This document shows, piece after piece, positions 2,688 through 18,004 of a DNA stretch of 21,218 bases. The stretch spans positions 1-21,218 of IMG/VR virus record IMGVR_UViG_3300042549_005258; one strand, 5' to 3'. The notes beneath the pieces were generated by a model that did no database searches, had not been told where the DNA came from, and was given only the letters and a program-made list of their open reading frames with translations. This stretch comes from a virus. Numbering within the stretch: position 1 is the stretch's first letter; the number at the start of each line of letters is the position of its first letter. A program made the position numbers and the translations under genes.

Positions 2688-5600
2688 TTAGACGGCACTA
2701 GAGGTTATTTGTTTCGAAGTAATACCTTTATACACGGTATACTCGTATCCATTAACCGTAAATACCTTATCAGTATCAATAATAATCTTGTTGGTTCCTG
2801 TGTAACTCTTATAGATTGTTGAGGGATCTACTCCATAATAACTTGTTGAAGATAAGATCAAAACCCCACGCCAAACAAAAGAAGATGTCTTCCAGTCATC
2901 CCACTCAAGGGTAAGTGGCAGAGAGTATTTAACTCCAAACCAAGGGCGCACATCAACCTTTTGAACCTCTTGCAGGTTTGTTGACTGATAGTAAGAAATT
3001 GTATTAAATGTTATCGGTCCATTTAGATTAATAGATCCAACTCTAGAATCAAAGTTTAATAGGTTTGGGAATGATATGCCCAAAAATCCCCACTCTTTTA
3101 TAGTTATAACTGGTTCTTTAACAAGTTTTCCATTCCAATAAAACCCTATATTGTCTTCTAATCTTCCAGTTCTTACATTTATAGCATAAACCTTGGCTCT
3201 TTCTCCAGTTGGGTGAATCGCTACCATGTAAAATTTTATATGGGTATCTTTTGACTGAATCTCAAATATTTCTGTTGGAGCATAAGGGAATGCATCCTGA
3301 TCATATCTTAATGCTATTTGCATGGCCATAACTTTATAGTTACTAGACATTTCTTTATTGATTGGAATAGATAAACCACGATTAATTATTGGATCAAATG
3401 TACCCTTTAACTCTATTCCAGTATATCTTGTTAGGTATAGGTATGGAGAACTGCCCTTGTAAATTGAAAAAGGATTTCTTTCTTTATAGTCATAGTAGAA
3501 TCCAGATTTTTTGTATGGATAGATTTCGTTTCCAAATCTTGTTCCAATTGGATTTGGAGATGTTGAGTTAAATGCTTGAGAAGCATACTCAAGGTTTCTA
3601 ACTTTAACCTTATTGTTTATGATGCCCTTTACATTAAAATCTAAATGCGTTACAAGTGCAAGATCCAAAACTCTAACATCTTTTGGTGGATAGATTATCA
3701 TATTGTTTATAACTTCATATTTTGTAATCATCCAGTTATCTCCTGGAACAACAATTGAATCATTAGATGGCTTTTCTATATTAAAAAAGTTTGACTCTAA
3801 AAGGTTTGCACCATTTTTAATATACTGAAATGTGACATAAGACTTAACCAATGAACCTGAAGTGTCATACTTATAGTTTTTAGACGCTCTATTTTTTAAA
3901 TCATCATAATTTAAGTAACCTGTAAATAATTGATTATCTAAAGACTCATAGGTTCTTTGTATTGGAACATTGTACTCATCTGATAATTCTGCATATGTCC
4001 ACTCATCTGTCTGTTCTTCTTCAACAAAATTTGAAGGTGCTGGATAGTTAATGTTAAATTGAATTAGATCAAGATCATAGTATGAGTTATTCTTTTTATC
4101 TTTTACAAACTGAGAAAAATATGTCAGAGGAATGTAGTCTTCCCAGTATCCTTGTATGTCAATATCCAATGTATAGTTGTCGAAGTAAGAAGATGGGGAT
4201 AGTGTGTAACTTGCGGTATGATCCTGAAAGTTATTTATAGGATATGAGTCCACTGCTCCTGAATCAATTAACTGATCCCACTCTGCATTATTATTGCCAA
4301 AATAATCATCTGTAGAACTGTATTCTACATCTACTGTGTTTGAGTATAATTGAAAAACATTTTCATCATTTACAGGAATTCCTCGCTCATTAAACAAGTA
4401 CTCGATTTTTTTATGGTTCCTTGCGGTGCAAAATCCAACCTTGTATATTTTGCCAGTAAAGGTTTGTGTTAAGTTTGACTTTCCACCTATATAAAATTTT
4501 AATGTGTTTATGTTTCCAAAGAAAGAAGCAACTCTGCCCCCAAAATATTTAGATGCTTTATCTATATCTATTCCAGCAGCAAACATTTCTTCTAGTGCTA
4601 TTCCAGTAAAAGGATCTACGCCTGACCAAGAAAACTTTGCAAGAATTTCTTCTGTATTTCCATAATTTAATTTATAGAATATGTCTTTGTTTTGTGTAGA
4701 TATTTCAAAGTAATCAGATGAGTTTTCTGATTCTACTCTAAACAAAATCTGTGTTTGAGTTGGTTCTTCTAAAAACTTAAAAGAGCCATAGAAAGATCTA
4801 ACTCTTTCATTTAAAAAATTTAAATTATCAAAATACATATATCCGCTTGTAACGGAGTCAAAAGAAAAGAATTTATCTGATTCATCCTGGATCTCTCCAA
4901 GGTCAGAATATAACTGATCAAGGTTTGAAGACCCTAAAACTATTTCTGGAAGTTTGTAGTCTGGGGTACACAAAAGATTATTTTCAACACTTAAGTTATC
5001 AACAATTGCCTGGTCCCATTTTCCTATATTTGGGTATGAGTAATTATTTGTATAGTCTGCAAAGGGATAGTCTATGTATATTGATGAACCACTATATGCT
5101 TGATTAATCCCCTCTGGAAATTCAACCCCTTGGCCATAAACAAACCTTTTTTTAGCAAGAATAATTGGAACAACATATGTGTATATAGCAACACAATCAA
5201 TTTCTATAGGAGAAACATCTTCGTATGCATAAAATCCAATCCAGTCCTGCTCCTTGTCATTTAAAATACTTACAGGAAATACTAACTCTGAAGTTAGGTA
5301 GTTCAAAGAAATTACTTCTTCTCCGTTTATAAGAAGAGATGCATTGTTTTCAGAAAGTCTTATGTGTATAAGCATTGGCCTTGTCCATTCGCCAATATAA
5401 TAAGATCCAGAATTATTTCCAACTTTTAAAATAATAAATGGTCCTTCAACATACAGTCCGTCTGTAGAAGAAATTGGACCAAGAATTCTTTTCTTTGTAA
5501 CCGAGTCTGAATTAATTCTCATCCACGCTTCTAAGGTGTATTCTTTATACTGACCAGCCTCAGATAAAAATCCAAGACCTGGGATAATAACAGATGGCAT

Positions 5601-6410
5601 ATCTGTATTTGGCAAAAGTTTTGTTAAATTTGATGCGCCGTATACAAGTGGAATTCCTGTGTTCTTTGCCATAAGGCTATTATCTTTAACCAAATAGTAG
5701 CCTTTGTTTTCTTCAAGACCATAGGCATCTGCTGGAATTGCAAAAGATGGAGGTAAATCAATAGTTGAAGGAAGTGAAATCTTTTGAACACCAAGTGAAG
5801 ATGAGTTAAACTCTTCAGACCATTGTCCAACAGTAATTCCATTTACCAAAAACTCATAGTCTTCTTCGTTAAGCGCTCCACCAAGATAGTTAATTTTTAT
5901 AACAACTCTAAACTCTGTATTGTCTTGTGGAATATCAAATGTCTCTGATATAAAAAACCATCTGTCTTGAATTGATGTTGTGTAAGACTTTAGTCTTTCT
6001 ATTTTACTTCCAGAAGTGGTGTCAAAATACTCGTAGCCAATTTCAAAACTAGAGGCATAAGCACTTAAAGAATTAAAAAATGCCCCTACAGAAAATGTTG
6101 ATAGGTTTTGGTTTAGGGTTGAAAAGTTAGCGATGTCATTGCTTATGCAAGTTATCTGACTAAAGGCATTATTTGTCAAAGCACCAGTTATTTTTGTGGT
6201 CTTGCTTTCTGGAAATGGTTCATCAGTGATGTCTGTAACAGTAACTGCAGAAAGACCAAGAGATTCTCCTGAAGCATCTTTCCAATTAGAAACATCCCTG
6301 CCAGCCTCATCTATCAAACTTATATAGTCAGCCTTGTCATCCAAAGCCCACAAAGCGATTGGATGTTCTGCATATATTTTTTCCGCATAGAGGTTTGATG
6401 GGTTAGACAT
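2688..6410 (-). CDS. Giant LamG/ConA-like virion structural protein
   Basis: This 1240-residue protein is rich in beta-forming, aromatic and Asn/Ser residues. It opens with YAEKIYAEHPIALWALDD (8-25), a start common in phage proteins with laminin-G/concanavalin-like domains. A first sandwich-like region spans about 60-220. A clearer LamG-type domain lies around 285-370 (EYTLEAWMRIN at 290-300, LLINGEEV at 359-366), and another around 510-690. The remainder is more repeated beta structure with no enzymatic motif. In tailed phages such proteins are tail or baseplate components, often carbohydrate-binding adhesins, so receptor or glycan binding is the likely role. It starts 25 bases after the reductase stop. 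No Shine-Dalgarno precedes the ATG, but TGTGGTAAAAT ends 9 bases before it. The exact number of LamG domains is uncertain. Confidence 0.75.
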   Translation of the reverse strand: MSNPSNLYAEKIYAEHPIALWALDDKADYISLIDEAGRDVSNWKDASGESLGLSAVTVTDITDEPFPESKTTKITGALTNNAFSQITCISNDIANFSTLNQNLSTFSVGAFFNSLSAYASSFEIGYEYFDTTSGSKIERLKSYTTSIQDRWFFISETFDIPQDNTEFRVVIKINYLGGALNEEDYEFLVNGITVGQWSEEFNSSSLGVQKISLPSTIDLPPSFAIPADAYGLEENKGYYLVKDNSLMAKNTGIPLVYGASNLTKLLPNTDMPSVIIPGLGFLSEAGQYKEYTLEAWMRINSDSVTKKRILGPISSTDGLYVEGPFIILKVGNNSGSYYIGEWTRPMLIHIRLSENNASLLINGEEVISLNYLTSELVFPVSILNDKEQDWIGFYAYEDVSPIEIDCVAIYTYVVPIILAKKRFVYGQGVEFPEGINQAYSGSSIYIDYPFADYTNNYSYPNIGKWDQAIVDNLSVENNLLCTPDYKLPEIVLGSSNLDQLYSDLGEIQDESDKFFSFDSVTSGYMYFDNLNFLNERVRSFYGSFKFLEEPTQTQILFRVESENSSDYFEISTQNKDIFYKLNYGNTEEILAKFSWSGVDPFTGIALEEMFAAGIDIDKASKYFGGRVASFFGNINTLKFYIGGKSNLTQTFTGKIYKVGFCTARNHKKIEYLFNERGIPVNDENVFQLYSNTVDVEYSSTDDYFGNNNAEWDQLIDSGAVDSYPINNFQDHTASYTLSPSSYFDNYTLDIDIQGYWEDYIPLTYFSQFVKDKKNNSYYDLDLIQFNINYPAPSNFVEEEQTDEWTYAELSDEYNVPIQRTYESLDNQLFTGYLNYDDLKNRASKNYKYDTSGSLVKSYVTFQYIKNGANLLESNFFNIEKPSNDSIVVPGDNWMITKYEVINNMIIYPPKDVRVLDLALVTHLDFNVKGIINNKVKVRNLEYASQAFNSTSPNPIGTRFGNEIYPYKKSGFYYDYKERNPFSIYKGSSPYLYLTRYTGIELKGTFDPIINRGLSIPINKEMSSNYKVMAMQIALRYDQDAFPYAPTEIFEIQSKDTHIKFYMVAIHPTGERAKVYAINVRTGRLEDNIGFYWNGKLVKEPVITIKEWGFLGISFPNLLNFDSRVGSINLNGPITFNTISYYQSTNLQEVQKVDVRPWFGVKYSLPLTLEWDDWKTSSFVWRGVLILSSTSYYGVDPSTIYKSYTGTNKIIIDTDKVFTVNGYEYTVYKGITSKQITSSAV

Positions 6411-6435: not shown

Positions 6436-8469
6436 CTACTTGTTTATTTTAATTTCACAGTAGTCTGTTGTACAGTACATCTCTCCTTGAGCCTCAAGAT
6501 TTTCTGCTCCATCATAAATAGCACCAAAATCAATGTGCTTTAGTTTGCCAATATATGACTCATACTCTTCTTCAGTAATCTGAGTGTATGGCTGCTGAGG
6601 GTAGACAGTGTTTCCCATTGGAAGGAATGAAACTGCCTTTAGTTGTCCCTCGTACATGTGAAGTGCTGGAACAACATGCTTTGACTCTGTTTCTTTGTCA
6701 AATGAAAGTGTTACAGAAACTCCATTATCAGACCAGTACTTCTGAGCAGTTGCAGCAAGTGCAATCTTTTCAAATAGGGTTACATCCTTTTCAGATCTTG
6801 GATGACCTGACTTAATTGGGAAATAAACTACTGATGTGTTTGCTGACACTACGTCATCTTCAATTGTGTACCCCGCTGCTTTAAACAAATGGATCATTGG
6901 ATCTGTAGTTCCAAATCGAACTGCACGAAGGAAGAAGTTTCCTCCAGGTCCCCAGTGAACTCCAGGAGTTGCACCAGAAAGAATTGAAACTGATCCTGAT
7001 GGCTTGACTGTTGTTACACGAATTGATTCACGAACACATAGCCATTCTGAATATTGGTGGTCATAGTGACGAATTTTGTTGTAGCCTTCATCCATCCATT
7101 CACGAACAATTGGCAAACCTTTTTGATCTGCAAATGATGCAATACCAGTAAGAGATGTACCAATACGACGATTGCGTTGCATAATACCGTTTGTTTGTGG
7201 CCAGTGTGTTGGAACAAGTGTTACAGTCTTTCCATATAAGTATGCAAACTTCAGGGTACGCAGGAAGTCTTCCTTAGATTCGTGACGATTTAAGTGCACT
7301 TCTACAAGTGTACATAATTCATATGATTCCAATGGCTGCTCCGCACAAGGGTTAAAGCCCATCACACGATAATCTTTCCCATCTGGCGCATCCTTTAGTC
7401 TGCCATAATTACGAGCAACATCAAGCCAGATAAAACCTGGTTCTCCATTTTCTGTAATTAAATCTACATAGTCTTCATACTTTGTTCCTACTTCTGCTGA
7501 AATAGAATTGTTAGACATCCAAGCCCAACCTGGATTTTCTGGATCAAATGAGTTGCGCTCTGGGAATAGTTCTGAGTTCTTTAGATTCATAAATGTTTCA
7601 TCCCCTGCATTACCTAAAGCAAGAGTTGCTGATCTACGAACATTGCCTGATACAACGCAAGTACCAATAAGGTTTACAAGGTCTACGATGGCACGAGAAT
7701 CTAGTGTTTCTCCGCCTCTGGAGCCGATTACACGGTCTATCTGGTCGTGTAACTTGATAAGAGGTGCAGGTCCTGATGCAACGCCTCCAAAGCCCTTAAT
7801 GGGGGCTCCAAGAGGTCTAATCAAATCATAGTTAAACTTCTGGATACTCTGGTTTGCTCTAAGGTATGAGTTGATAAGAAGTCTGACTGACTCTACCCAG
7901 CCTTCACGAGTGTCTGGAATTTCAAACACCTGTTCTGGTTCTGTTGGGGCATAGATTGAGAAATTCTTATCCTGTCCTACTGTATCAAACCCTACACCAA
8001 TACCAAGCATCAGTGCATCCATAACCCAAGCAAACAAGGCTCCTGGATCATTCTTATCAAGGTCTTTTGTAGATACCATTGCACAGTTTTGTAGTGCTGC
8101 TGAGTTCTTCTTTTCCATAGTCATAGGGGTTCCGAATGCCCACATACCGCGACCTGGTGGGGTCCACTTTAATTCAAACATTCTTTGAAATGCTTCTTGT
8201 GCAGACTTCTGAGCCTTGTAGTCATTCCAAGGTAAACGGTTTTCTTTAGCGTGATTCTTTTGTACTGAATACATGCCCTCAATTACACGACGACAAACTT
8301 CGTGCCATCTTTCCTTAGTTCCATCTTCTTTCATACGAGAATAAGTACGAATAAAAGTAATTTCTCCAAGTGAATTTTCTGCTGCATCCTTAAAACCAAA
8401 CGGGCTTTCTTGGCTTTTATACTTTTCTACAAAGTCCTCTGGAAGTTTAAAACTAAAAAAATCTGACAT
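6436..8469 (-). CDS. nrdJ: Adenosylcobalamin-dependent (class II) ribonucleoside-triphosphate reductase, monomeric
   Basis: This enzyme reduces ribonucleotides to deoxyribonucleotides with a coenzyme B12-generated thiyl radical, supplying dNTPs for phage replication. The 677 residues match the monomeric Lactobacillus leichmannii-type enzyme. The N-terminus has SPFGF...FIRTYSRMKEDG. C129 (ALQNCAMVST) and C386 form the redox pair. NPCAEQ gives N373, the radical C375 and E377. The C-terminal CTTDYC (C666, C671) is the disulfide-exchange pair. The C375-C386 spacing of 11 equals that of the L. leichmannii enzyme (C408-C419). All key residues are present, so it should be active. It has a good Shine-Dalgarno sequence (AAAGGA, 8 bases before the ATG) and a plausible promoter in the 88-base gap upstream. 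The host must supply cobalamin. It sits between the oxygenase run and the virion genes. Confidence 0.95.
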   Translation of the reverse strand: MSDFFSFKLPEDFVEKYKSQESPFGFKDAAENSLGEITFIRTYSRMKEDGTKERWHEVCRRVIEGMYSVQKNHAKENRLPWNDYKAQKSAQEAFQRMFELKWTPPGRGMWAFGTPMTMEKKNSAALQNCAMVSTKDLDKNDPGALFAWVMDALMLGIGVGFDTVGQDKNFSIYAPTEPEQVFEIPDTREGWVESVRLLINSYLRANQSIQKFNYDLIRPLGAPIKGFGGVASGPAPLIKLHDQIDRVIGSRGGETLDSRAIVDLVNLIGTCVVSGNVRRSATLALGNAGDETFMNLKNSELFPERNSFDPENPGWAWMSNNSISAEVGTKYEDYVDLITENGEPGFIWLDVARNYGRLKDAPDGKDYRVMGFNPCAEQPLESYELCTLVEVHLNRHESKEDFLRTLKFAYLYGKTVTLVPTHWPQTNGIMQRNRRIGTSLTGIASFADQKGLPIVREWMDEGYNKIRHYDHQYSEWLCVRESIRVTTVKPSGSVSILSGATPGVHWGPGGNFFLRAVRFGTTDPMIHLFKAAGYTIEDDVVSANTSVVYFPIKSGHPRSEKDVTLFEKIALAATAQKYWSDNGVSVTLSFDKETESKHVVPALHMYEGQLKAVSFLPMGNTVYPQQPYTQITEEEYESYIGKLKHIDFGAIYDGAENLEAQGEMYCTTDYCEIKINK

Positions 8470-8557: not shown

Positions 8558-9172
8558 TTATAAGGTCTGCCAGTGCAAATATTTTCTGTAGTCTCCGTGA
8601 CCAATAATATTTGAGTCAACCCACCAATCTTCGTGAAAAGATCTGTGAACTAAAGAGTATCCAAAAGAATCTAAAATTTCTCTCTGTGCATCCCTAATTG
8701 AATCATTTCTCCAATACATATTTGCATCGTGCTCAAAAGTAATTAAAGTAAATCTATATGTATTTAATGGTACTGCTATTAAGCCTTGAAGTGTCCAATG
8801 ACTATTTCCTACTGGCCTACCGTGATTATCATAGCCAGCATCTATATCTAACTGCAAGTAATCAATCTGTTTTGGAAAGTTATTTTTTTCAAAATGTTCT
8901 ATATAGTTAAAGGCAAGAGCATCACCCATACAAGGATTTTTTCGATTTGCATTAAACTCATCTCTCATAGACTCAACTATTTCAAATGATACCCCAGTCC
9001 AGTCATACTCTTTTTCTAGTAAATAAGTATTGTTTCCATTGCTATAGTGTGCTGCTCCCAACTCAACATAATACCCATTTTTCTTTTTATTTAAAATTCC
9101 AAGAATGAACTGCTCTTGCTCTGTCATTTGATGAGAGTTAAAGTCTTCATTTGTAAATCCAATATTTGTCAT
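8558..9172 (-). CDS. FkbM-family (class I SAM-dependent) methyltransferase
   Basis: This 204-residue protein probably transfers a methyl group from S-adenosylmethionine to a hydroxyl, as FkbM-type enzymes do on sugars and polyketides. The SAM-binding motif I is YYVELGAAHYSNGNNT (34-49). The acidic strand-2 end is SFEIVE (62-67), a later GDAL (83-86) follows, and the strand-4 motif is YLQLDIDAG (105-113). These are in the order and spacing seen in the FkbM/Methyltransf_21 family, and the length is typical. It is the last gene of the oxygenase run and overlaps the upstream oxygenase by four bases (ATGA). AAAGGAG, about 10 bases before the ATG, serves as ribosome-binding site. Position suggests it modifies the same molecule as the oxygenases and dehydrogenase, but the substrate is unknown. 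Confidence 0.85.
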   Translation of the reverse strand: MTNIGFTNEDFNSHQMTEQEQFILGILNKKKNGYYVELGAAHYSNGNNTYLLEKEYDWTGVSFEIVESMRDEFNANRKNPCMGDALAFNYIEHFEKNNFPKQIDYLQLDIDAGYDNHGRPVGNSHWTLQGLIAVPLNTYRFTLITFEHDANMYWRNDSIRDAQREILDSFGYSLVHRSFHEDWWVDSNIIGHGDYRKYLHWQTL

Positions 9173-9735
9173 TTAAATAAATCTCCTTTTAATTTTGTTG
9201 GCTGCTGCACTGTTCCACGTATAAAAACAGTAGAGAAGTATCTTATTGTATCATCTAGTACTGGCAGTGAGCCATGAACTATGTGCCCTCCGTGAATGTA
9301 TAGGGCATTTGCTTTTGGCTTAATTGTAATTTTTAAATCTGGATAATCTAACTCCCCGCCTAAATAGTCATTATTATAGTATAAGCAAAATCCATATCCT
9401 ATGTAATATGGTAGATCTGGAATCCATTGATCTGCGTGGTGCTTAATAAAATCACCTTTTTTATATCTTTGCAGATGTGTTTTTTCAGGATAATACGAAT
9501 AAGACTCAAAAAGATTTCTCATCTTCTCGTTTATTAAATCAAAAACAGTTGCTGACTTAAAGTATAAATTTTTTCCGAACCAGAAATCTGAAGTGTTATT
9601 TTCATTCCTGGCTGATTCATCAAACCAATCATCCTCTGGAGTGTTATTAATTATAGCATAAACATCAGCGAGTTCCTGCTCTGTTAAAAATTCTTCTACT
9701 TCGTATACATCATCGTAAAGTTTATTTATTTTCAT
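9169..9735 (-). CDS. 2OG-Fe(II) oxygenase, prolyl-4-hydroxylase-like (copy 8 of run)
   Basis: This 188-residue enzyme has the double-stranded beta-helix fold of 2-oxoglutarate/Fe(II) hydroxylases. The iron ligands are H100 and D102 (KHHADQW) and H154 (IVHGS). The 2OG-anchoring basic residue is R165 in DTIRYFSTVF. A YYNNDYLGGELDYPD strand (119-133) matches the NDDYxGGE signature shared by the run. It is the shortest of the eight, with only about 90 residues before the core. It starts 11 bases after the dehydrogenase stop with GAGGAT as ribosome-binding site, and its stop overlaps the methyltransferase ATG. It should hydroxylate a peptide or small molecule; the substrate is not visible. Confidence 0.88.
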   Translation of the reverse strand: MKINKLYDDVYEVEEFLTEQELADVYAIINNTPEDDWFDESARNENNTSDFWFGKNLYFKSATVFDLINEKMRNLFESYSYYPEKTHLQRYKKGDFIKHHADQWIPDLPYYIGYGFCLYYNNDYLGGELDYPDLKITIKPKANALYIHGGHIVHGSLPVLDDTIRYFSTVFIRGTVQQPTKLKGDLFK

Positions 9736-9746
9736 ATATCCTCAAA

Positions 9747-10409
9747 TCATTTACCACTAAGTATGTGGTTTACCTCTATATGATTTATATTTACATGGCT
9801 TGGCAACTCAGATACCCACCTGATGCACTCTGCCATGTCTTCTGCTGTTAATGCAGCGTTCTTTTTTTCTACTTGAGTGTCTATTGTTCCTGGACAAATT
9901 TCAGTAACCTTAATTCCATATTCTGGAAATTCTAGTCTCATTGTATCCACAAGAGCCATCATTCCTCTTTTAGCATTTGTATAGTTTCCACCTGATCTGT
10001 AGGCAAACTTGCCACCTAAAGAACTAATGAATATAATTGTAGGAGATTCTGACTTCTTCATAGAAGGAACAAAAAGTTGAGACAAATACATTGGCCCAGA
10101 AACATTTATGTCATACGCTCTTCTAAAGTTATCCATTGTTTCATTAACTATGTATGTAGGGCTTGCGCCTCCACCAGCATTATTAACAAGAAGGTCAAGA
10201 GTTATATTGCTATACTTTTCGTGAAACCTTTTAATCTCATCAGCGCTAGTTACATCCAGTCTATAAACTTCAACATTATCAGAAACTAGATTAATAATTT
10301 TAGACAGATCTCTTGAAACAGCAATAACCTTGTAGCCACTTTCAGATAAAAGTTTTACAGTTGCGTACCCAACACCCTTACTTGCTCCTGTAACAATTGC
10401 TGTTTTCAA
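9747..10409 (-). CDS. Short-chain dehydrogenase/reductase (SDR)
   Basis: This 220-residue classical SDR oxidises or reduces a hydroxyl/carbonyl with NAD(P)(H). The cofactor motif TGASKGVG is at 7-14, with an Arg at 33 (VSRDL) suggesting NADP(H). LDVT (51-54) and NNAG (76-79) follow. The catalytic S130, Y143 and K147 (YTNAK) have the standard 13- and 4-residue spacings. The start is a TTG directly after the TAA of the upstream oxygenase, in the same reading frame (TAA at 10410-10412, TTG at 10407-10409). The motif needs this N-terminus, since the first strand begins at residue 2, so TTG is the best start. No Shine-Dalgarno sequence is evident, which suggests termination-reinitiation coupling. 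In this run it could act on hydroxyls created by the neighbouring oxygenases or on a sugar. Confidence 0.88.
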   Translation of the reverse strand: MKTAIVTGASKGVGYATVKLLSESGYKVIAVSRDLSKIINLVSDNVEVYRLDVTSADEIKRFHEKYSNITLDLLVNNAGGGASPTYIVNETMDNFRRAYDINVSGPMYLSQLFVPSMKKSESPTIIFISSLGGKFAYRSGGNYTNAKRGMMALVDTMRLEFPEYGIKVTEICPGTIDTQVEKKNAALTAEDMAECIRWVSELPSHVNINHIEVNHILSGK

Positions 10410-11144
10410 TTACATAGCACCGTTGCGATTAAGATCCATACCGTTATGAATCCAGTGTGATGGAACCATATATTTAAATCCAGACTTTACAACATGTGCT
10501 GTGTGGAAATATGGAGGAAATGCTGGAAATATGATAACACTATTTGCTTTTGGCTTTAATCCAAAATCAATTGCTTTCTCTGCTACTGCTATATCATAAT
10601 CTAAGTCTACTGCTGGGGCCGATCCTTTAGAAAACCCATCAGTGCTTGTCCAACCGCCATCGTAGTCTTTTAATTGAAAAGATATTTCTCCACCCTGACA
10701 GTCGTCATTTAAATACATTACAAGAGAGTATCGCAAGGTCTTATCTCCATCTAACTGATCAAAGTGTGCCCCCATACCTATTCCAGTATTGTATTTCTTT
10801 ATATTAAAGGTTGGAAAAATTCTTGGCTCGTCAAAGTCCCCAATAGATGTGGCGTAGTCTTTACAAACATCATAAAGTGTAGTCATTATTGAATCATAAA
10901 TATACTTACTTTTTTCTGCTATATCGCCATCTAACCTATTTATCGCATTGATGTCAAATGTCTTTGTTTCTCCATAAATAAAACTTTTGTCATTAGATGC
11001 TGTCCAGGTATTCCAAACATTTACATCAGATCCGTTTACTGATTCCAAGGAATCTAATTCTGTTAAGGTACTTTGAAATTTATCAAAATCCTTTATTGCA
11101 TCTGTATAGTAGTAAACCTTTGGGTCTAATATCTCTTTATTCAT
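10410..11144 (-). CDS. 2OG-Fe(II) oxygenase, prolyl-4-hydroxylase-like (copy 7 of run)
   Basis: This 244-residue enzyme has iron ligands H127 and D129 (GAHFDQ) and H214 (YFHTAH). The 2OG anchor is a Lys, K224 (SGFKYMVPS), as in animal and plant prolyl 4-hydroxylases. YLNDDCQGGEISF (144-156) is the shared strand signature. A loop of about 30 residues (160-190) between that strand and KPKANSVIIF is longer than in the other copies. The N-terminal 100 residues are not similar by eye to the neighbours. It has the strongest ribosome-binding site of the run, AGGAGG about 7 bases before the ATG, and is followed in the same frame, directly after its TAA, by the SDR gene. The substrate is unknown. Confidence 0.88.
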   Translation of the reverse strand: MNKEILDPKVYYYTDAIKDFDKFQSTLTELDSLESVNGSDVNVWNTWTASNDKSFIYGETKTFDINAINRLDGDIAEKSKYIYDSIMTTLYDVCKDYATSIGDFDEPRIFPTFNIKKYNTGIGMGAHFDQLDGDKTLRYSLVMYLNDDCQGGEISFQLKDYDGGWTSTDGFSKGSAPAVDLDYDIAVAEKAIDFGLKPKANSVIIFPAFPPYFHTAHVVKSGFKYMVPSHWIHNGMDLNRNGAM

Positions 11145-11154
11145 TTAACTCCTC

Positions 11155-11814
11155 CTAGTACCTATTCTTTTTATAGTGATCAGTTTCTTTAATAAAGCCA
11201 ACAAGGACATATCTAATAGGACCTTCTCCTACGTGTCTTACTCCGTGTTCGTATTCTTCGTTACCTGGGAAAAATAGCATAGTTCCTGGCTTAGGTTTTA
11301 ATTCTATACCAAGTTTTGGAAAAAATAACTCTCCATCAACATATTCATCATTTATATATATAATTGTGGCATATCTAATAGATGGGTCTGTATGTTGATC
11401 AGTATGTGACTTTAGTTCTACTCCAGTTTGCATTCTTTGAATGGTTCCAAGACCACTTAAGTGTAGGGTTGAGTCTGAGTTGATGACCATTGAATTTAAA
11501 TTATCATACATCGGCATGTACATCTCATGATCTGATATATTAAAATTTTTATCTTTCCAGTTTTGAGTAATTTCAAACTTGCCTTCAGCGACAAGATTAT
11601 CAACATCGTCTCTGCCAAATTTTTCTAAACAAAAACTTTTTAAATTTGAAAGATACTCAACTTCCCATTCTTCCTGAGACGTATTATCTATAATATTATT
11701 CAGGGTATCTAACTGCTCTTTTGATAAAAAGTTTTCAACAGAAATTAGTTCTGTAGTAAGTTCTTTAAATGAATATCCATTTTCTAATAAATGCTTTTTA
11801 AAAGATTCAATCAT
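11155..11814 (-). CDS. 2OG-Fe(II) oxygenase, prolyl-4-hydroxylase-like (copy 6 of run)
   Basis: This is a 219-residue 2OG-Fe(II) hydroxylase. The proximal ligands are H137 and D139 in KSHTDQHTD, where a second HTD follows at 141-143. The distal ligand is H190 (YEHGV) and the 2OG anchor R201 (IRYVLVGF). The strand signature is YINDEYVDGELFFP (153-166), and KPKPGTMLFFPG precedes the distal His. The N-terminal half carries a VENFLSKEQLDTLNNII helix (26-42) similar in style to copies 4, 5 and 8. Its ATG overlaps the end of the upstream oxygenase by eight bases (11807-11814). It is compatible with peptide or free amino-acid hydroxylation; no partner can be named. Confidence 0.88.
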   Translation of the reverse strand: MIESFKKHLLENGYSFKELTTELISVENFLSKEQLDTLNNIIDNTSQEEWEVEYLSNLKSFCLEKFGRDDVDNLVAEGKFEITQNWKDKNFNISDHEMYMPMYDNLNSMVINSDSTLHLSGLGTIQRMQTGVELKSHTDQHTDPSIRYATIIYINDEYVDGELFFPKLGIELKPKPGTMLFFPGNEEYEHGVRHVGEGPIRYVLVGFIKETDHYKKNRY

Positions 11815-12562
11815 TTTGAATACTCTCTACCTTATACTTGTTGCCATCTTTATCCAACTTATATCCTTCTTTTAATAAGTTTTGCCACTCTGATCGCTCA
11901 ATCTCTTGTTTGGCTCTTGTTTCTTTCATTTCTGCTGCCCAGGCATCTCGTAGTTCTTGAGGATATGCATCTTCTTCTCTATCATCCCAGAAAGATCCTA
12001 TGGTATATCTTACTCCGCTTTCGATTAGTGAGACTTCGTGCATATTGTTAAATCCCCCGTCAAAAACAGCAAGCATTCCAACCTGTGGCTTAATCTCTAT
12101 ATTCTGATCTGGAAACTTTAATAGTCCACCTTCAAAATTATCATTTAAATAAAGGAATCCAGCATATCTACTTCTTGTGAATGCTCCTGAATTTCCTTCA
12201 GCATCTGTATTATCAGAGTGGATTCTTGCGTATGCTCCTGGCTCCCATTTTTGTGTATGGTATCCAATCTTAGAAATTATTTTTGGGTCAAGATCGTGAA
12301 CTGAAGCAATTGCTTCTGGCATTGCCTTTTCAATGTCTGAAAAAATAGTTGGAGATAATCCAGCATCAAGTAATTCTTGATCATTATCTTGTGGCAATAT
12401 TGAGGAGTATGACTCATAAAATGAAATAGGCATCCAAGAAATTGCACCATTATCTGCTTGAGCGTCTAAGGCTTGAATCATTTTTTTACAATCTTCTTTG
12501 CTTATAAAGTTTTCATAAACAACTATATCTTTTGTTATTCTTTTTTTGTTTTCTAGATTCAT
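11807..12562 (-). CDS. 2OG-Fe(II) oxygenase, prolyl-4-hydroxylase-like (copy 5 of run)
   Basis: This 251-residue enzyme has iron ligands H115 and D117 (RIHSDN) and H175 (NMHEV). The 2OG anchor is R185 (GVRYTIGSFW). FLYLNDNFEGGLLKFPD (136-152) replaces the usual GGE with GGL, unlike the other seven copies. After the catalytic core it has a C-terminal extension of about 55 charged residues (195-251) predicted to be helical, rich in Glu, Lys and Arg, not seen in most neighbours. The N-terminus has YENFISKEDCKKMI (16-29), the helix that opens several copies in the run. Start and stop are both overlapped: TAATG with copy 4 upstream, eight bases with copy 6 downstream. Confidence 0.87.
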   Translation of the reverse strand: MNLENKKRITKDIVVYENFISKEDCKKMIQALDAQADNGAISWMPISFYESYSSILPQDNDQELLDAGLSPTIFSDIEKAMPEAIASVHDLDPKIISKIGYHTQKWEPGAYARIHSDNTDAEGNSGAFTRSRYAGFLYLNDNFEGGLLKFPDQNIEIKPQVGMLAVFDGGFNNMHEVSLIESGVRYTIGSFWDDREEDAYPQELRDAWAAEMKETRAKQEIERSEWQNLLKEGYKLDKDGNKYKVESIQND

Positions 12563-13431
12563 TATATTCTTACTCCATTTTCTATTACAGATCTTTGGGG
12601 ATGCTTTTCCCTAAATGCTTTTTCTAGTTCTGGCTGCATAGAAGCCCAAACTTCTTTACCAAACTCTTTTTCTTTTTCATACCACTCATCTGTTCCTTTT
12701 TGGTATTTTTGCCAATACATTCTTGACAAAAATTTATTTTTATTGTATGATGGCATAACTCCGTGCAAATATGGTTGGCCTTCTTCTGTTAGATAATCTG
12801 GATGCCCTGATGGGAAAACCAAAAGATCTCCTGCTTCTGGTTTGTATTTTATAAGTTTGTCTCCCATAGCAAAATCAATCTCTCCGCCTTCATAGTCATC
12901 ATTAAAATATATTGTACAAGTTATTACAAACTTATATCCTGGAGCATATCCTTGTTCTCTAATATAGTCTGAGTGATACCTCATTCCAACCTTTTGTTCT
13001 TCATCACTCATATGATATTTTCCTATTGTTCCACCTGTCCATCTCCAAGTTTGTGTGCTATTTCCATTTTCGTCTATAGAGGTTTCATTTAAATCTACAG
13101 TAATGTTATATTTTTTAATATAGTCTTCTGTAACTAAGTGAAAATTTTCCATCATCTCTATACCAAAATTTTTTTGATCTTCTTCAATCTGTGTTTTTGT
13201 TTTTATATTTTTTAAATTTCCATACTTATCAGACATAGAAAACTCAGGAACTATAGGATTGAGATATTCTCCAAAAATAGACCACTGTGTCCAAGGATTA
13301 AAAAGCCTATCTTCTGTTTCTACTAAAGAGTCTGTTAAAACTTTGTAAGATTTTGATATGTCTTTAAAAAGATTTTTGTATACTACAATGTTTGGATACA
13401 GTTCTATTGATTCAAGATGTTTGTCTGTCAT
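12562..13431 (-). CDS. 2OG-Fe(II) oxygenase, prolyl-4-hydroxylase-like (copy 4 of run)
   Basis: At 289 residues this is the longest oxygenase of the run. Iron ligands are H153 and D155 (RYHSDY) and H223 (YLHGV). The 2OG anchor is probably K233 (NKNKFLSRMYW). The strand signature is IYFNDDYEGGEIDF (174-187), and KPEAGDLLVFPSGHPDYL precedes the distal His. A WRWTGGTIGKYHMSD stretch (129-143) just before the core is peculiar to this copy. About 45 residues follow the core (Trp- and Glu-rich helix). It lies one base after the stop of copy 3, and its TAA overlaps the ATG of copy 5. It is predicted active; the substrate is unknown. Confidence 0.88.
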   Translation of the reverse strand: MTDKHLESIELYPNIVVYKNLFKDISKSYKVLTDSLVETEDRLFNPWTQWSIFGEYLNPIVPEFSMSDKYGNLKNIKTKTQIEEDQKNFGIEMMENFHLVTEDYIKKYNITVDLNETSIDENGNSTQTWRWTGGTIGKYHMSDEEQKVGMRYHSDYIREQGYAPGYKFVITCTIYFNDDYEGGEIDFAMGDKLIKYKPEAGDLLVFPSGHPDYLTEEGQPYLHGVMPSYNKNKFLSRMYWQKYQKGTDEWYEKEKEFGKEVWASMQPELEKAFREKHPQRSVIENGVRI

Positions 13432-13432
13432 A

Positions 13433-14104
13433 TTAGGGCTGCCTGTCTCCTGTATGCTTTGTAATCTTCCAAAAAAATGGACAAGTAAATCTTAAACCAC
13501 TTTTAATCTCAGTCACTCCGTGAATATAGTTTTTATCTCCTGGGAAAAAATAAGCAGCACCTCTTTTAGGTTTAAACTGTACACCCTGTAAAGGAAAATA
13601 CAACTCTCCGCCTTCATAGTCGTCATTTAGATAAAACAAACTTGAAAGATCATAGTTTGGAAAATCATTTGGTAATCCAGCATCTGGACCTTCGTGAAGT
13701 TCTTTGTCTGCGTGTGGTCTCTGAAATTGTCCTGGAAGCCATTTAACAATAGTTGTTCCAGTTGGGACAACTTCTACTTTATAAAACTCTTCGATAATTG
13801 GTTTTAGTCTTTGGAATAGTCCAGCAATTATTGGAGATATTGATGGATCATTTTTGTCCAATGTTGGTTGGGTTGCAACTCTGTCTTTCCAGTAATCTGA
13901 ATCGTATACAACTGTACCATTTTCATTTACGTGGCTCTGTGTTACGTCCCAAATAGTTAAAGACTTTGCAGCCTTTTCTAAAAATTCCATTTCTTCTTGA
14001 GTCATAAAGTTTTCTAACTCAACTATCATATCTTTGCTGTCTCCAAACCATCCAGACGGAGTTAGGGATGGCTTTCTTATTACAACATTTTCGTTATTGT
14101 TCAT
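13433..14104 (-). CDS. 2OG-Fe(II) oxygenase, prolyl-4-hydroxylase-like (copy 3 of run)
   Basis: This is a 223-residue enzyme. Iron ligands are H131 and D133 (RPHADK) and H195 (YIHGV), with 2OG anchor R205 (GLRFTCPFFW). The strand signature is FYLNDDYEGGELYFP (157-171). A roughly 20-residue acidic/proline loop (135-152) follows the HxD motif and is longer than in copies 1 and 2. The N-terminus opens with basic residues and VELENFMTQEEMEFLEKA (28-45), the common opening helix. Its ATG follows the DUF6065-like gene's TAA by two bases. An alternative TATAAT lies 6 bases before the ATG but within the upstream coding sequence. Confidence 0.89.
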   Translation of the reverse strand: MNNNENVVIRKPSLTPSGWFGDSKDMIVELENFMTQEEMEFLEKAAKSLTIWDVTQSHVNENGTVVYDSDYWKDRVATQPTLDKNDPSISPIIAGLFQRLKPIIEEFYKVEVVPTGTTIVKWLPGQFQRPHADKELHEGPDAGLPNDFPNYDLSSLFYLNDDYEGGELYFPLQGVQFKPKRGAAYFFPGDKNYIHGVTEIKSGLRFTCPFFWKITKHTGDRQP

Positions 14105-14106
14105 AA

Positions 14107-14835
14107 TTACATTATACCATTCTCTTTATTTTTTGTATTATCTACTACAGATAACTTTAAAACCCTAACTTCGTGCTCACCTAAAGTTTCTCCCTTTTCG
14201 TTTACAGCGTCTCTGTACCAGTCTGTCCATTTTCCAGATGAATTTATAACCTGTGCTGCATCTCCGTAAGATATGTTTGCATCTATTCTTTTTCTATCTT
14301 CATCTTTGTAGTCAACAATTTCTATTGAAGTGTTGTTTAACTCTGAAAGAGAAATAGGAATTATTGTTGCAATTGGAGTTCCTGCTTTAATAACCACGTG
14401 CTTGTTGGGTGATTTTGCTTTTATTGCTAACGGCAAGGGATTATCATAAAATGATGTGCTAATCAAGTTAGACATTGTTTCAAAATCATTGCTAAAGTAA
14501 TTTACTGGATTAATAGTAAATATACTTACATGTTTGTCTGTTTTAAATATTAGGTCAGTATTAAGACTTATAGAGGACTGTCCTCTTCCCCCATATGATC
14601 CTTTTGGTGCTTTAATTATTTCAATATGATCTGGAGTTTGATCATTTATACCGTCCCAAATAAACTCAATATCTTCCTTACAAGACAGATTGTATCCAAT
14701 AACATTTGCCTGTGTTACTGGAAAACATCTGTATGCATGGTTTTCATAAGTTTGATCCATCCAATCTCTTTTTATAGACATTGGAGATATATCAAAAAGA
14801 GATCCTGGAGTTTTTTCAATTAGTATGTTATACAT
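14107..14835 (-). CDS. DUF6065-like beta-rich protein of unknown function (copy 2)
   Basis: This 242-residue protein has no recognised catalytic motif. The pattern YRCFPVTQANVIGYNLSC (about 35-52), then D-I-E-F-I-W-D-G, a central IFTINPVNYF, and IKAGTPIATIIPI resembles the uncharacterised DUF6065 family. It also matches the gene at 15528-16307 in order and spacing: C-P-x(n)-G-Y-x(3)-C-x-D-(I/L)-x-F and AGTP...(I/L)P. I therefore read the two as diverged paralogues. Both follow an HxD oxygenase and are translationally coupled to it (here TAATG at 14833-14837). No membrane or signal segments are visible; the fold is probably a beta-sandwich. A partner, carrier or substrate-binding role for the oxygenase is inference. 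The family name is from memory of the motif layout and is tentative. Confidence 0.7.
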   Translation of the reverse strand: MYNILIEKTPGSLFDISPMSIKRDWMDQTYENHAYRCFPVTQANVIGYNLSCKEDIEFIWDGINDQTPDHIEIIKAPKGSYGGRGQSSISLNTDLIFKTDKHVSIFTINPVNYFSNDFETMSNLISTSFYDNPLPLAIKAKSPNKHVVIKAGTPIATIIPISLSELNNTSIEIVDYKDEDRKRIDANISYGDAAQVINSSGKWTDWYRDAVNEKGETLGEHEVRVLKLSVVDNTKNKENGIM

Positions 14836-15518
14836 TACTCATTATCCCACTTAGAATCATACATGTCTGGGGTATGAAACTTTTTGCTGTAATCTAACAT
14901 CGTTACAATAGAATACTTTGTTCCAGAGTGAACTGGCATTGCTTGGTGAGGATACATAAAATTAGAAGGAAAAATATAAAGATCTCCAGCCTGTGGTTTT
15001 ATATTTAAATCTTGTAATCTAAAATATAATTCTCCGCCCTCGTAGTCATCATTGATATACGCGACAAGAGACACTGTACAGTTGTAAGAATATCCGTGAT
15101 CATGATGTTCTTTAAAGTGCTGGCCTGGACCATACTTGATAAAGTTAAATGCTTCCCAATACTTTAGTGGCATGATATTATGGTCTCTTCGATAGTCTTC
15201 AACTGCTGCAAATTGAGCATCATAGACATCTTGCCATAAAGCCTGTAGGTGTAAAGACTCTTCGCTGGTGTCTTGTTCTATGTCTGTTTTTTTAAATTTA
15301 AAATCTACGCAATCTCGATACTCTGGCATAAGTTGCTGATATCCAACATAGGCTGGAAACCAATGATATCTTTTACCTTCTGGAGATAAGTCTTCATATC
15401 CAGCAACTGATCCAAGGGTATTCTCAAGCCTGTTTATTAAATCAAACTCTTTTTTTATTACTCCTCGATAACAGGTTATTCCATTACCTAAGTTAATTTT
15501 TTCTGTCCATGTTTGCAT
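14835..15518 (-). CDS. 2OG-Fe(II) oxygenase, prolyl-4-hydroxylase-like (copy 2 of run)
   Basis: This 227-residue enzyme is the closest relative of copy 1. Both share RDCVDFK(F/Y)K (68-76 here), (Y/W)EAFNF(I/V)KY before the core, the HxDHGxxYNCTVS motif and the SGTKY ending. Iron ligands are H138 and D140 (EHHDHG) and H191 (YPHQA). The 2OG anchor is K201 (GTKYSIVTM). The strand signature is YINDDYEGGELYF (154-166), and KPQAGDLYIFPSNF precedes the distal His. AGGAG lies 8 bases before the ATG and overlaps the stop of the upstream DUF6065-like gene. It is followed by the second DUF6065-like gene, repeating the gene order of copy 1. Confidence 0.9.
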   Translation of the reverse strand: MQTWTEKINLGNGITCYRGVIKKEFDLINRLENTLGSVAGYEDLSPEGKRYHWFPAYVGYQQLMPEYRDCVDFKFKKTDIEQDTSEESLHLQALWQDVYDAQFAAVEDYRRDHNIMPLKYWEAFNFIKYGPGQHFKEHHDHGYSYNCTVSLVAYINDDYEGGELYFRLQDLNIKPQAGDLYIFPSNFMYPHQAMPVHSGTKYSIVTMLDYSKKFHTPDMYDSKWDNE

Positions 15519-15527
15519 TTATTTCTC

Positions 15528-16307
15528 CTATTTGTATTCTCTTCTTGACCAAACGTTGTTCTTATATACCCCGCCATCTGGCTGACGGTAAAACTGCATG
15601 TTCTTAACCATTTTATCATAAATTTGAGACTGATCTAAAATATCTACTTCGTGTTCCCAGTTTTCCCTCTTAAATGGAAGGACTTGTAGATACGGAGTTC
15701 CTGCTGGAATAGTTCCTTCCCATCCATCTACTATAAAGAATGGAAAACTACCAAGTAAATGAACATTATCAGAGTCAACAACACCTGTTGTATTTAAAAA
15801 TGGAAGATCAAACCTATTCATTGGTGTCATAAATAAAGCACTGTAGCCTTCGGGAAGTTCTAATCCCCAGTCAGCAGACCAAGCAAAGTGATGTTTATAA
15901 TATCCAAGTGGGTGCTCAAACTGTGGCATTGGTGGCCTTTGTGTACAAAAATCTTGATTATTAGCATCTTCAGTCTTAACATTAATTATTCCCTGAGCAT
16001 TTTTAAAAAAGGTTAAATCGCATGGTGTTTTAAAAACATATCCAGTTGAGAAAGCATCCATAATTGCAGGACAGGCTTTCCACGTAGGAACCTTACCATA
16101 ATCATCTGTAGTACCTTCTTTTGGAAATGGACAAACCTCTTTTGGTGCTTTATAGTATTCTCCATTTGGCATCTTGGCAAATCTATCTGCATCCTTATAC
16201 CATTCAGGAATGACACTTTGAGTTGGAGATGGAAGAGATTTGCTGTCTTTGTTTAGCCAGGGCCTAAAGGATCTGAATATTGCTAAATTAGATTTTGCAT
16301 CAGGCAC
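15528..16307 (-). CDS. DUF6065-like beta-rich protein of unknown function (copy 1)
   Basis: This 259-residue protein starts with GTG at 16307, which overlaps the upstream oxygenase stop by one base (TAGTG). It has IPEWYKDADRFAK near the N-terminus, four to five cysteines including CPAIMDAFSTGYVFKTPCDLTFF (about 79-101), FAWSADWGLELPEGYSALFM, then IPAGTPYLQVLPFKRENW near 200-220. The layout parallels the protein at 14107-14835 and resembles the uncharacterised DUF6065 family, as judged from memory of the motifs. Numerous Trp, Phe and Pro residues suggest a compact beta-sandwich. No catalytic residues can be assigned. It sits between oxygenase copies 1 and 2, tightly coupled to the former. A role as accessory or substrate-presenting subunit is a guess from this repeated pairing. 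Confidence 0.72.
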   Translation of the reverse strand: MPDAKSNLAIFRSFRPWLNKDSKSLPSPTQSVIPEWYKDADRFAKMPNGEYYKAPKEVCPFPKEGTTDDYGKVPTWKACPAIMDAFSTGYVFKTPCDLTFFKNAQGIINVKTEDANNQDFCTQRPPMPQFEHPLGYYKHHFAWSADWGLELPEGYSALFMTPMNRFDLPFLNTTGVVDSDNVHLLGSFPFFIVDGWEGTIPAGTPYLQVLPFKRENWEHEVDILDQSQIYDKMVKNMQFYRQPDGGVYKNNVWSRREYK

Positions 16308-17014
16308 TAGTGACTCAGTTCATTAATGTCTGTCATAATGACAACACAATACTTTGTACCTGATTCCATTGGAAGTGACGCATGCTCATAAATATAATTT
16401 GATGGAAAAACTGCAATATCTCCAATTCTTGGCTTATGAACATAATTATCTAATCTTGGAAACTTAATCTCTCCACCTTCATAGTCATCATTGATGTATA
16501 TAACGGCAGAAACTGTGCAGTTGTATGCTGGACCATGATCTGCGTGAATATTAAAGTGAGTTCCCTCTCCTTCATATTTTACAAAATTAAAGGCTTCATA
16601 ATACACAACACTAATACCCCAGTATTTTGCATAGTCATCTATACACAATTTTAGTTTTTGATATATCTCTTCGTGTAGGTCAATTAGTTCAGAGTTTGTA
16701 TTGTCTTTTGGTCCTAAATTTTCTTGTTTGTATTTAAAGTCTACACAGTCTCTTGCTTTTTTAATTGGCGTTGTAGAGTTTGTTACTTGGGCTTCTGACC
16801 ACTTATACTTACTGCCATTTGAAAGATTGGATTCAAGAATGTTGATATATCTTTTAGAGTCTTCTACTGAAAAAGTATTTCGGTAAATATTTAATCCAAG
16901 TCCTGGATTTTCTACGGTAATATTTTTATCAATTTCTCTGTGAACCCTATTTGATACTGTTTCAGATCTATCTTTAGTAAACCAAGGGTTTGAATTTTCA
17001 TCATAGCCAGACAT
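16307..17014 (-). CDS. 2OG-Fe(II) oxygenase, prolyl-4-hydroxylase-like (copy 1 of run)
   Basis: This is a 235-residue enzyme from the chosen ATG at 17014. An upstream in-frame ATG at 17089 would add 25 residues. I reject it because a TGTGGTATAAT promoter element (17049-17059) lies inside that extension and an AGGA Shine-Dalgarno sequence sits 5 bases before 17014. With the short start, iron ligands are H157 and D159 (IHADHG) and H211 (YEHAS). The 2OG anchor is K221 (GTKYCVV). The strand signature is YINDDYEGGEIKFP. RDCVDFKYK and YYEAFNFVKY pair it with copy 2. It is the first gene of the 12-gene run, and its TAG overlaps the GTG of the next gene. Confidence 0.89.
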   Translation of the reverse strand: MSGYDENSNPWFTKDRSETVSNRVHREIDKNITVENPGLGLNIYRNTFSVEDSKRYINILESNLSNGSKYKWSEAQVTNSTTPIKKARDCVDFKYKQENLGPKDNTNSELIDLHEEIYQKLKLCIDDYAKYWGISVVYYEAFNFVKYEGEGTHFNIHADHGPAYNCTVSAVIYINDDYEGGEIKFPRLDNYVHKPRIGDIAVFPSNYIYEHASLPMESGTKYCVVIMTDINELSH

Positions 17015-17065: not shown

Positions 17066-17112
17066 ATCTAAGATTTTTAGATCAATCAACTGTGAATTAG
17101 TTTAAAACTAAT
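17066..17112. repeat. Two AT-rich inverted repeats between the FFPP gene and the oxygenase run
   Basis: ATTAGTTT (17096-17103) and AAACTAAT (17105-17112) form a perfect palindrome with a one-base centre, immediately after the FFPP gene's stop. ATCTAA (17066-17071) and TTAGAT (17077-17082) form a 6-bp stem with a 5-base loop, followed on the minus strand by GTTTTC. Both are A/T only or nearly so and lack a long T-tract. They may be a weak terminator or protein-binding sites near the promoter at 17049. Confidence 0.35.
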
Positions 17113-17113
17113 C

Positions 17114-18004
17114 TTAAAGCATCAGGCCACTCTTGAACGTTGGGAAGAACGGTGGTGCTGGAGAGAATGATGGTGGGAAGAACGGTGGGAAGAATGGGAA
17201 GAATGGTGGGAAGAATGGTGGGAAGAACGGTGGGAAGAATGGGAAGAACGGAAAGAATGGTGGGAAGAACGGTGGGAAGAATGGGAAGAACGGAAAGAAT
17301 GGTGGGAAGAATGGTGGGAAAAATGGCGGGAAGAACGGCGGGAAGAATGGTGGAGTAGTAGTAACATTTTGAGATGCTGCTGATGTTAGTGAGTTACCAT
17401 TAGCATTTGTTGCATAAACTGTATATGTCTGAGAAGTACCACCTTCTTGAGTAACTGCAACAGTTGTAGTACCTGAACCTACGGTTGCACCCTTTGCATC
17501 TGATGATGCCCAAGTATAACCAGTAATTGCAGATCCACCATTTGCTGGGGCAGACCAAGTTATTGTATCTTGATTAACCTGAAGAGTTACAGTTGGTGCT
17601 GCTGGTTGGGCTGGAACTGTTGTTGCGGTAATTGATGATGAAGCAGAAGATGCAGCAGATGTTCCTGCAGCATTTGATGCCGCTACTGTAAATGTGTATG
17701 CGGTATTAGAAGCAAGGCCTTCAAAAGTATAACTTGTTGAAGATGTTCCAGTTGTAACTGTATAAGTTTCTGGATTTGACACAATAGTATAAGATGTTGC
17801 TGCAGGAGAAAGTACTGGCAAAGTCCAGGATAAAGTTGCAGATCCACCAGTTCCTGCTGCAGATGCAGCAGATGTTGTATTGGCAGTCAACAGGTAAGGT
17901 CGTGCAGTCCCAACGTTAGTTGCTGTAACGCTTGTTGGTACTAATGGCTCTAGAAAGTCATTTGCTGCTTGTGACTTCTTGCCTGACTTCTTACCTGCTG
18001 CCAT
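17114..18004 (-). CDS. Fibronectin-III-like virion protein with C-terminal FFPP/FFP repeat tail
   Basis: This 296-residue protein begins with a basic stretch (AAGKKSGKKS, 2-11). Two fibronectin type III-like domains follow: about 35-130 (TLSWTLP, SYTIVS, TSYTFEGLASNTAYTFTVAA) and about 132-215 (DTITWSAPANGGSAITGYTW, YTVYATNANG). Residues 218-278 are sixteen uninterrupted FFPP or FFP units, then a degenerate SFSPAPPFFPTF and a short end. FnIII domains are common in phage tail and surface proteins, so an exposed fibre-like role is likely. The Phe/Pro tail could form an extended hydrophobic polyproline-type segment, for instance for adhesion or as a hydroxylation target. AGGAG lies about 8 bases before the ATG. 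It follows the fibre gene by 32 bases and directly precedes the oxygenase promoter. Confidence 0.8.
   Translation of the reverse strand: MAAGKKSGKKSQAANDFLEPLVPTSVTATNVGTARPYLLTANTTSAASAAGTGGSATLSWTLPVLSPAATSYTIVSNPETYTVTTGTSSTSYTFEGLASNTAYTFTVAASNAAGTSAASSASSSITATTVPAQPAAPTVTLQVNQDTITWSAPANGGSAITGYTWASSDAKGATVGSGTTTVAVTQEGGTSQTYTVYATNANGNSLTSAASQNVTTTPPFFPPFFPPFFPPFFPPFFPFFPFFPPFFPPFFPFFPFFPPFFPPFFPPFFPFFPPFFPPSFSPAPPFFPTFKSGLML
17171..17353 (-). repeat. In-frame 12/9-base tandem repeats encoding FFPP and FFP
   Basis: The plus strand reads alternating GGTGGGAAGAAC/T (12 bases, FFPP) and GGGAAGAAC/T (9 bases, FFP) units with very few substitutions, mostly in third codon positions. Unit order in the protein is four FFPP, two FFP, two FFPP, two FFP, three FFPP, one FFP, two FFPP. 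The block FFP-FFP-FFPP-FFPP occurs twice in succession, showing higher-order duplication. All units are multiples of three, so slippage would change tail length without shifting frame. Confidence 0.9.

Follow-up and report, generated by a model that had tools for sequence, protein, structure and literature searches.

A swappable Phe-Pro repeat tail and its prolyl-hydroxylase-like oxygenases: a likely self-modification module of uncultured phages

The IMG/VR virus record IMGVR_UViG_3300042549_005258, analysed here over its whole length of 21,218 bases (the window), has genes for a portal, a head protease, fibres and a class II ribonucleotide reductase (RNR), every one of them on the minus strand. 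At 8558-17014, likewise on the minus strand, it carries a run of eight 2-oxoglutarate (2OG)-Fe(II) oxygenases, two DUF6065-type proteins, a short-chain dehydrogenase/reductase (SDR) and a weakly assigned FkbM-like gene. Comparison with related phages makes it likely that this locus is a swappable tail-plus-modification module, in which prolyl hydroxylases would modify a phage-encoded repeat protein that is itself probably part of the virion. The proposed substrate, encoded on the minus strand at 17114-18004, joins an fn3-domain head (E 3e-13) to a C-terminal (FFPP/FFP)n tail recognised by its composition. The original prediction described a modification pathway of unknown target in the interval 8558-17014, which ends just short of this most informative gene; a target can now be proposed, since a protein with an (FFPP)n tail is co-encoded and co-swapped with the enzymes. 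Since repeat and enzymes swap together in related phages, hydroxylation of the phage's own protein, rather than a part in host metabolism, is the most likely role of the oxygenases.

Exchange of tails and enzymes in sister phages

Scans with the head protein or the RNR as seed supplied the sister loci; the locus counts are from those in which the whole head-to-RNR interval was visible, with duplicates removed. Between the same fibre gene and the RNR, one head protein carries four types of tail, namely FFPP, xSFTP, GAFGAF and FGVFGFSP. Cassette oxygenases are present in 39/39 distinct FFPP loci, four to eight in each, whereas they occur in 0/33 loci with other tails (P 3e-21). Changes of tail and of cassette coincide in 19/19 cases on the RNR protein tree (5/5 on strong branches). 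The RNR DNA tree, which is better resolved, gives 16/16 coinciding changes, and 8/8 independent pairs on its strongly supported branches are concordant (sign test P 0.008).

The exchange can be followed in locus L034, which is 97.6% identical to the window in the RNR, 94.0% in the portal and 58% in the head, and whose tail is of the (xSFTP)n type. Behind this tail lie a DUF6171-like gene (L034:1447-2163), a Sulfotransfer_2-like gene (L034:2165-2956; E 3e-4, just under the cut-off) and one DUF6065 gene, the first two taking the place of the oxygenases, none of the eight of which is found there. Ser, Thr and Tyr are abundant in the L034 tail. In the case of the FGVFGFSP tails, the accompanying genes belong to a family without a Pfam match (phrog_2696 in one copy) in which HxD...H motifs were recognised by eye, and sometimes include a protein of the Asp/Asn beta-hydroxylase family together with sulfotransferase-like genes. 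The Pfam-less family, found beside mostly FGVFGFSP tails, is probably another oxygenase; copies lie at L571:9079-9774, L596:7883-8539, L603:9152-9784 and L039:2227-2889, and the motifs read WHDHG, GHPHA and PRITVAYD.

Linkage of repeat and enzymes from three search seeds

Repeat and enzymes were also found together when the searches were seeded in three different ways. Locus counts are among the matches listed in these scans and the loci are mostly contig fragments; cassette genes were called with hidden Markov models built for this analysis, and trees were made by a quick method. The oxygenases are named ox1 to ox8 in the order in which they follow the tail gene. Seeding by ox4 gave dozens of contigs with the fixed order FFPP gene, ox1, DUF6065 a, ox2, DUF6065 b, ox3, ox4, ox5, ox6, ox7 and SDR, with ox8 and the FkbM-like gene variable. 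This kept order agrees with the dedicated pathway that had been proposed, and the genes co-occur in relatives instead of being scattered. Where enzyme-seeded loci leave room upstream, the FFPP gene is present in 43/43 of those listed, at a median gap of 144 bp.

A scan for the DNA pattern of FFPPFFPPFF, which is blind to the enzymes, recovered loci most of which carry oxygenase and DUF6065 genes beside the tail gene, and it reached divergent phages in which the FFPP tail is accompanied by a minimal set of ox3, ox2 and DUF6065, with order and strand rearranged. In the minimal group seeded by DUF6065, ox2 and ox3 are found in 76/77 of the loci listed and the repeat in 57/77, several of the repeat-less loci reaching the contig edge before the place where the tail would be expected; all three gave 0/80 in random viral stretches. 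In 23 FFPP records the stretch examined around the tail shows no oxygenase; 17 of these have a PF13640 match above the cut-off elsewhere in the record, as against 6/50 random records (P 3e-7). In bacterial genomes the FFPP pattern gave 28 matches in 257 Gb, with cassette-type oxygenases at few loci only, and these matches are probably phage contigs in metagenome-assembled genomes (MAGs). At L292, L298, L307 and L309, FFPP genes lie in contigs assigned to MAGs of Verrucomicrobiales, Gammaproteobacteria or Chitinophagaceae but probably of phage origin, three of the four with cassette-type genes in the stretch examined.

The repeat tail

About 79 residues at the end of the 17114-18004 product are nearly all F (36) and P (33), reading PPFFPPFFPP...FFPFFPP. 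The F and P codons in such tails differ at the third base (TTC/TTT; CCA/CCG/CCT/CCC), a variation that argues for selection on the tail protein. The gene adjoins the oxygenases directly upstream, both in the window and in relatives, and the FFPP tail is borne near the same enzymes by different, very dissimilar heads, and once almost alone. Units with a single proline (xFPxF) occur in 77/78 distinct tails accompanied by ox1 and in 0/48 without ox1, the lone exception being the tail of L148, which is cut by the contig end. At L564 the tail is a hybrid in which FFPP units are few and PFFPNFCPAFCP units numerous, and the ox1-ox5 genes are still present. C-terminal to the repeat, a Hint/intein-like stretch was noticed by eye after several non-FFPP tails and some FFPP tails (L123:5233-6537, L125:2771-4099, L249:8066-9304 and L524); no Hint profile of Pfam matched the L123 tail protein.

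The eight oxygenases

Open reading frames (ORFs) were called stop to stop. All eight oxygenase ORFs match PF13640 (2OG-FeII_Oxy_3) and phrog_61 in profile searches, seven of them above the curated PF13640 cut-off of 27 bits and ox8 below it at 23 bits, and successive genes of the run overlap or sit no more than about 11 bp apart, which bears out the tight series of eight intact oxygenases originally described. The first of them, ox1 (16307-17014; 42 bits), is a paralog of ox2 whose HDHK site is kept in 101/101 orthologs, and it starts with an ATG at 17014, with an in-frame TTG at 17089. Two oxygenases are also found in the minimal cassettes, ox2 (14835-15518; 58.6 bits) and ox3 (13433-14104; 35.2 bits; prolyl 3-hydroxylase 1 E 3e-10). 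These are followed by ox4 (12562-13431; 36.1 bits; prolyl 4-hydroxylase (P4H) E 8e-4), ox5 (11807-12562; 35 bits; prolyl 3-hydroxylase 1 E 3.5e-11), ox6 (11155-11814; 42.7 bits), ox7 (10410-11144; 32 bits) and the variably present ox8 (9169-9735; HDHR site in 29/29; P4H E 2.6e-8).

The HxD motif, the distal His and the 2OG-binding Arg/Lys are kept in all eight window oxygenases, and the iron and 2OG residues are present in 100% of ungapped orthologs (ox1 101, ox2 132, ox3 144, ox4 97, ox5 106, ox6 88, ox7 89 and ox8 29). In the tree, each of the eight is an old paralog family of its own that holds together as a single clade across phages, and ox1 pairs with ox2, ox3 with ox5, ox4 with ox7 and ox6 with ox8. 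Recent duplication or decay is ruled out by the intact sites and the old separate clades, in line with the strong divergence and preserved iron sites noted at the outset. In the phylogeny, which had been suggested as a check, the deep branches that would bear on a single expansion of all eight are weak.

The nearest solved structures in profile searches of the PDB are mainly peptidyl prolyl and lysyl hydroxylases, the matches comprising prolyl 3-hydroxylase 1, prolyl 4-hydroxylases, PHD2, lysyl hydroxylase LH3 and PKHD-type oxygenases, among them PiuC-like ones. No nucleic-acid oxygenase was among these matches; two of the oxygenases give sub-threshold matches to Tet_JBP in Pfam. A model of ox2 (predicted local distance difference test score, pLDDT, 93), the one oxygenase of the eight that was modelled, has a double-stranded beta-helix and aligns over most of its length with an algal P4H bound to (Ser-Pro)5 and with the Trichoplax PHD (Z 18.6). 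Taken together, profiles and model predict peptidyl-prolyl-hydroxylase-like enzymes that would act on peptide proline. The PHROG names 'DNA endonuclease' and 'ferrochelatase' on related families look like misannotation.

Accompanying genes

Both DUF6065 proteins that had been recognised earlier could be placed, protein b (14107-14835; also in minimal cassettes) above the Pfam cut-off (PF19541 E 2e-24, 86.9 bits) and protein a (15528-16307) by phrog_7084 alone (E 1e-33). The AlphaFold model of protein a, the one DUF6065 protein modelled, has a pLDDT of 95 and matches the dUTPase/dCTP-deaminase fold with a Z of 9.6 over 121 residues, at a root-mean-square deviation of 4.9. Unlike in those enzymes, the motif-III Asp appears not to be conserved, a motif-III-like Asp being present in 43/87 DUF6065 sequences (mapped by sequence only), and Cys79 and Gly89 are invariant instead. 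Sequence searches of the PDB found no DUF6065 relatives. A DUF6065 homolog of about 28% identity is gp35 of the archaeal Halorubrum virus HRTV-22 (L314), encoded near adhesin, tail fibre and class II RNR genes, with no 2OG gene annotated nearby.

The SDR (9747-10409; PF00106 E 1e-40), as the sequence had first suggested, is a clear family member and is the usual final gene of the conserved core order. The FkbM methyltransferase label fared worse: the variably present gene at 8558-9172 has no Pfam, PHROG or NCBIfam match in its window copy and its homologs match Methyltransf_21 at E 0.1-0.2 only, so that it is at most a possible FkbM-like methyltransferase. Downstream, the class II (B12-dependent) RNR (6436-8469) lies within the structural module and is retained while the neighbouring module swaps. 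The region 2688-6410 encodes a 1240-aa protein with a weak LamG-like match, which is 53% identical to its L034 copy, compared with 98% for the RNR and 94% for the portal. A promoter and terminator scan gave signal at chance level.

Proposed mechanism

The proposed mechanism starts from an fn3-domain head protein of the structural region that would bear an interchangeable, low-complexity C-terminal repeat. The oxygenases would hydroxylate the (FFPP/FFP)n tail, with proline as the probable and phenylalanine as a possible site, and separate oxygenases may take different positions or registers of it; that each enzyme has its own position is plausible. The two DUF6065 proteins, with their dUTPase-like fold, would perhaps be scaffolds, chaperones or substrate-presenting partners, and the SDR may further oxidise hydroxylated residues. 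By these steps a very hydrophobic repeat could become a soluble, stiff or adhesive appendage.

More broadly, the comparisons lean towards a repeat-and-enzyme code in a large group of uncultured phages, in which an interchangeable tail of a surface protein has its own enzymes for each type. FFPP tails would be served by prolyl-hydroxylase-like enzymes, some xSFTP tails by sulfotransferase-like ones and FGVFGFSP tails by other oxygenases, and tail and enzymes would be exchanged as one unit, diversifying the modified surface chemistry of the phage.

Weighing the explanations

Several points weigh against a dedicated tail-modification module. The loci are not independent of one another, and of the 23 FFPP records in which no oxygenase was seen close to the tail, 6, all of them fragments, show no PF13640 anywhere. 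The association of ox1 with single-Pro units comprises two independent changes only (ox3 tree), both concordant and not significant; it therefore has the standing of a prediction, not of proof, and was dropped as an independent test. Moreover, the prolyl hydroxylase matches partly mirror which PF13640 members have solved structures, the same PDB match lists hold PKHD-type oxygenases of other or unknown substrate, the fold model covers ox2 only, and the number of enzymes, up to eight for so simple a repeat, is not accounted for.

Three other explanations were considered, each of which explains less. The enzymes could act on a host glycan, lipid or small molecule, with the FFPP protein as carrier, scaffold or delivery partner, as the SDR, the possible methyltransferase and the PiuC-like PKHD matches might suggest. 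This is quite unlikely, and the host glycans named in the original prediction are the less likely target, given that peptidyl hydroxylases dominate the structure matches, that the register of the tail tracks ox1, that the minimal-cassette stretches examined show only ox2, ox3 and DUF6065 beside the repeat, and that other tails pair with chemically different enzymes (sulfotransferase, Asp/Asn hydroxylase). It is very unlikely that the link is one of neighbourhood only, with a recombination hot spot swapping whole stretches without any functional tie: recombination in a region between conserved genes would move neighbours jointly and would by itself give co-swapping, but it leaves unaccounted for the one-to-one pairing over 16 swaps, the joint retention of the repeat with ox2, ox3 and DUF6065 in far phages despite rearranged order and strand, and the very different heads that carry the tail near the same enzymes.

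Production of a hypermodified nucleotide, or alteration of phage DNA, by TET/JBP-type oxygenases together with the dUTPase-fold DUF6065 and the neighbouring RNR is highly improbable. The fold of DUF6065, the two sub-threshold Tet_JBP matches and the adjacent class II RNR of the window speak for it, but the cassette follows the protein repeat and not the RNR, which stays when tail and oxygenases swap out and which many relatives do not have after the cassette; furthermore, nucleic-acid oxygenases are missing from the profile matches, and the motif-III Asp of dUTPases appears not to be conserved over the DUF6065 set.

Relation to known systems

The proposed tail hydroxylation has its nearest known counterpart in a chlorella virus P4H with proline-rich viral proteins as its likely substrates, and the present locus would be a multi-enzyme, swappable phage form of such a system. 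The PBCV-1 enzyme (vCPH, 5C5T) is a virus-encoded P4H whose fold is among the closest to ox2, and it is thought to hydroxylate proline-rich viral proteins (Eriksson et al. 1999, as cited in PMC9301287). Both systems tie a proline-rich repeat protein to an enzyme of the same virus, here through an adjacent and co-swapped FFPP tail; PBCV-1, however, is an algal virus, whereas here up to eight or more paralogs attend one FFPP tail gene, together with DUF6065 and an SDR, and swap with the tail. According to one paper, the use that viruses make of this enzyme 'remains cryptic' (PMC9301287). The fold and the iron site are shared with collagen prolyl 3- and 4-hydroxylases, the hypoxia-inducible factor (HIF) hydroxylase PHD2 and bacterial P4H, with which the ox2 model aligns nearly full length; those enzymes act on collagen, HIF or EF-Tu, whereas here a Phe-Pro repeat of a phage protein is the proposed substrate.

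Loci for ribosomally synthesized and post-translationally modified peptides (RiPPs) and for serine-rich-repeat adhesins encode a repeat substrate beside dedicated modifying enzymes. Likened from genes alone, the present locus differs from these in belonging to a phage, in using oxygenases, not glycosyltransferases or cyclases, and in swapping the whole repeat; head and repeat resemble the leader and core of a RiPP, and some tails are then followed by the Hint-like stretch.

Among cultured phages, the cyanophages also have 2OG-Fe(II) oxygenases of PF13640 and phrog_61, several per phage and some beside tail fibre genes, but their identity reaches no more than about 45%, and that over only part of the protein; the cyanophage stretches examined showed no FFPP repeat. 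In 50,697 deposited phage records, seven query proteins (ox2, ox3 and both DUF6065 proteins of the window; ox2, ox3 and DUF6065 of the minimal type) gave distant single-gene matches or none, the former being partial-length cyanophage matches of up to about 45% and halovirus matches of about 28%. The description of the run as exceptional thus holds for the cassette among deposited phages and does not hold for uncultured phages, where it is common; cyanophage S-SCSM1, moreover, is reported with 24 2OG genes (PMC9602691). In that Synechococcus phage (L478, 205796-228827), four 2OG oxygenases in a row (240-243) directly adjoin tail fibre 244 and short tail fibre 245, the latter with a low-complexity NFRQP/RAPFNFRAP repeat, and in Synechococcus phage S-CAM7 (L476) two collagen-like proteins, with runs of 22 and 14 GXY triplets, are encoded near a lone 2OG oxygenase. 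In S-T4, Melnitz and the AG-345 viruses, the stretches around the oxygenases contain no convincing Pro-rich repeat. Neither 'FFPPFF' nor DUF6065 turned up in phage papers of the open-licence literature searched.

Significance

Aquatic phages commonly carry 2OG-Fe(II) oxygenases, and the usual view is that these genes reprogram host metabolism (PMC3037559, PMC9602691). A specific phage-encoded substrate is now proposed for one such group, with comparative support from the swapping of repeat and enzymes between near-identical genomes. If this proposal is true, DUF6065 would gain its first context, hydroxylases for materials made of Phe-Pro repeats could be drawn from these enzymes, and part of the large class of 'auxiliary metabolic genes' would shift to the self-modification of phage proteins.

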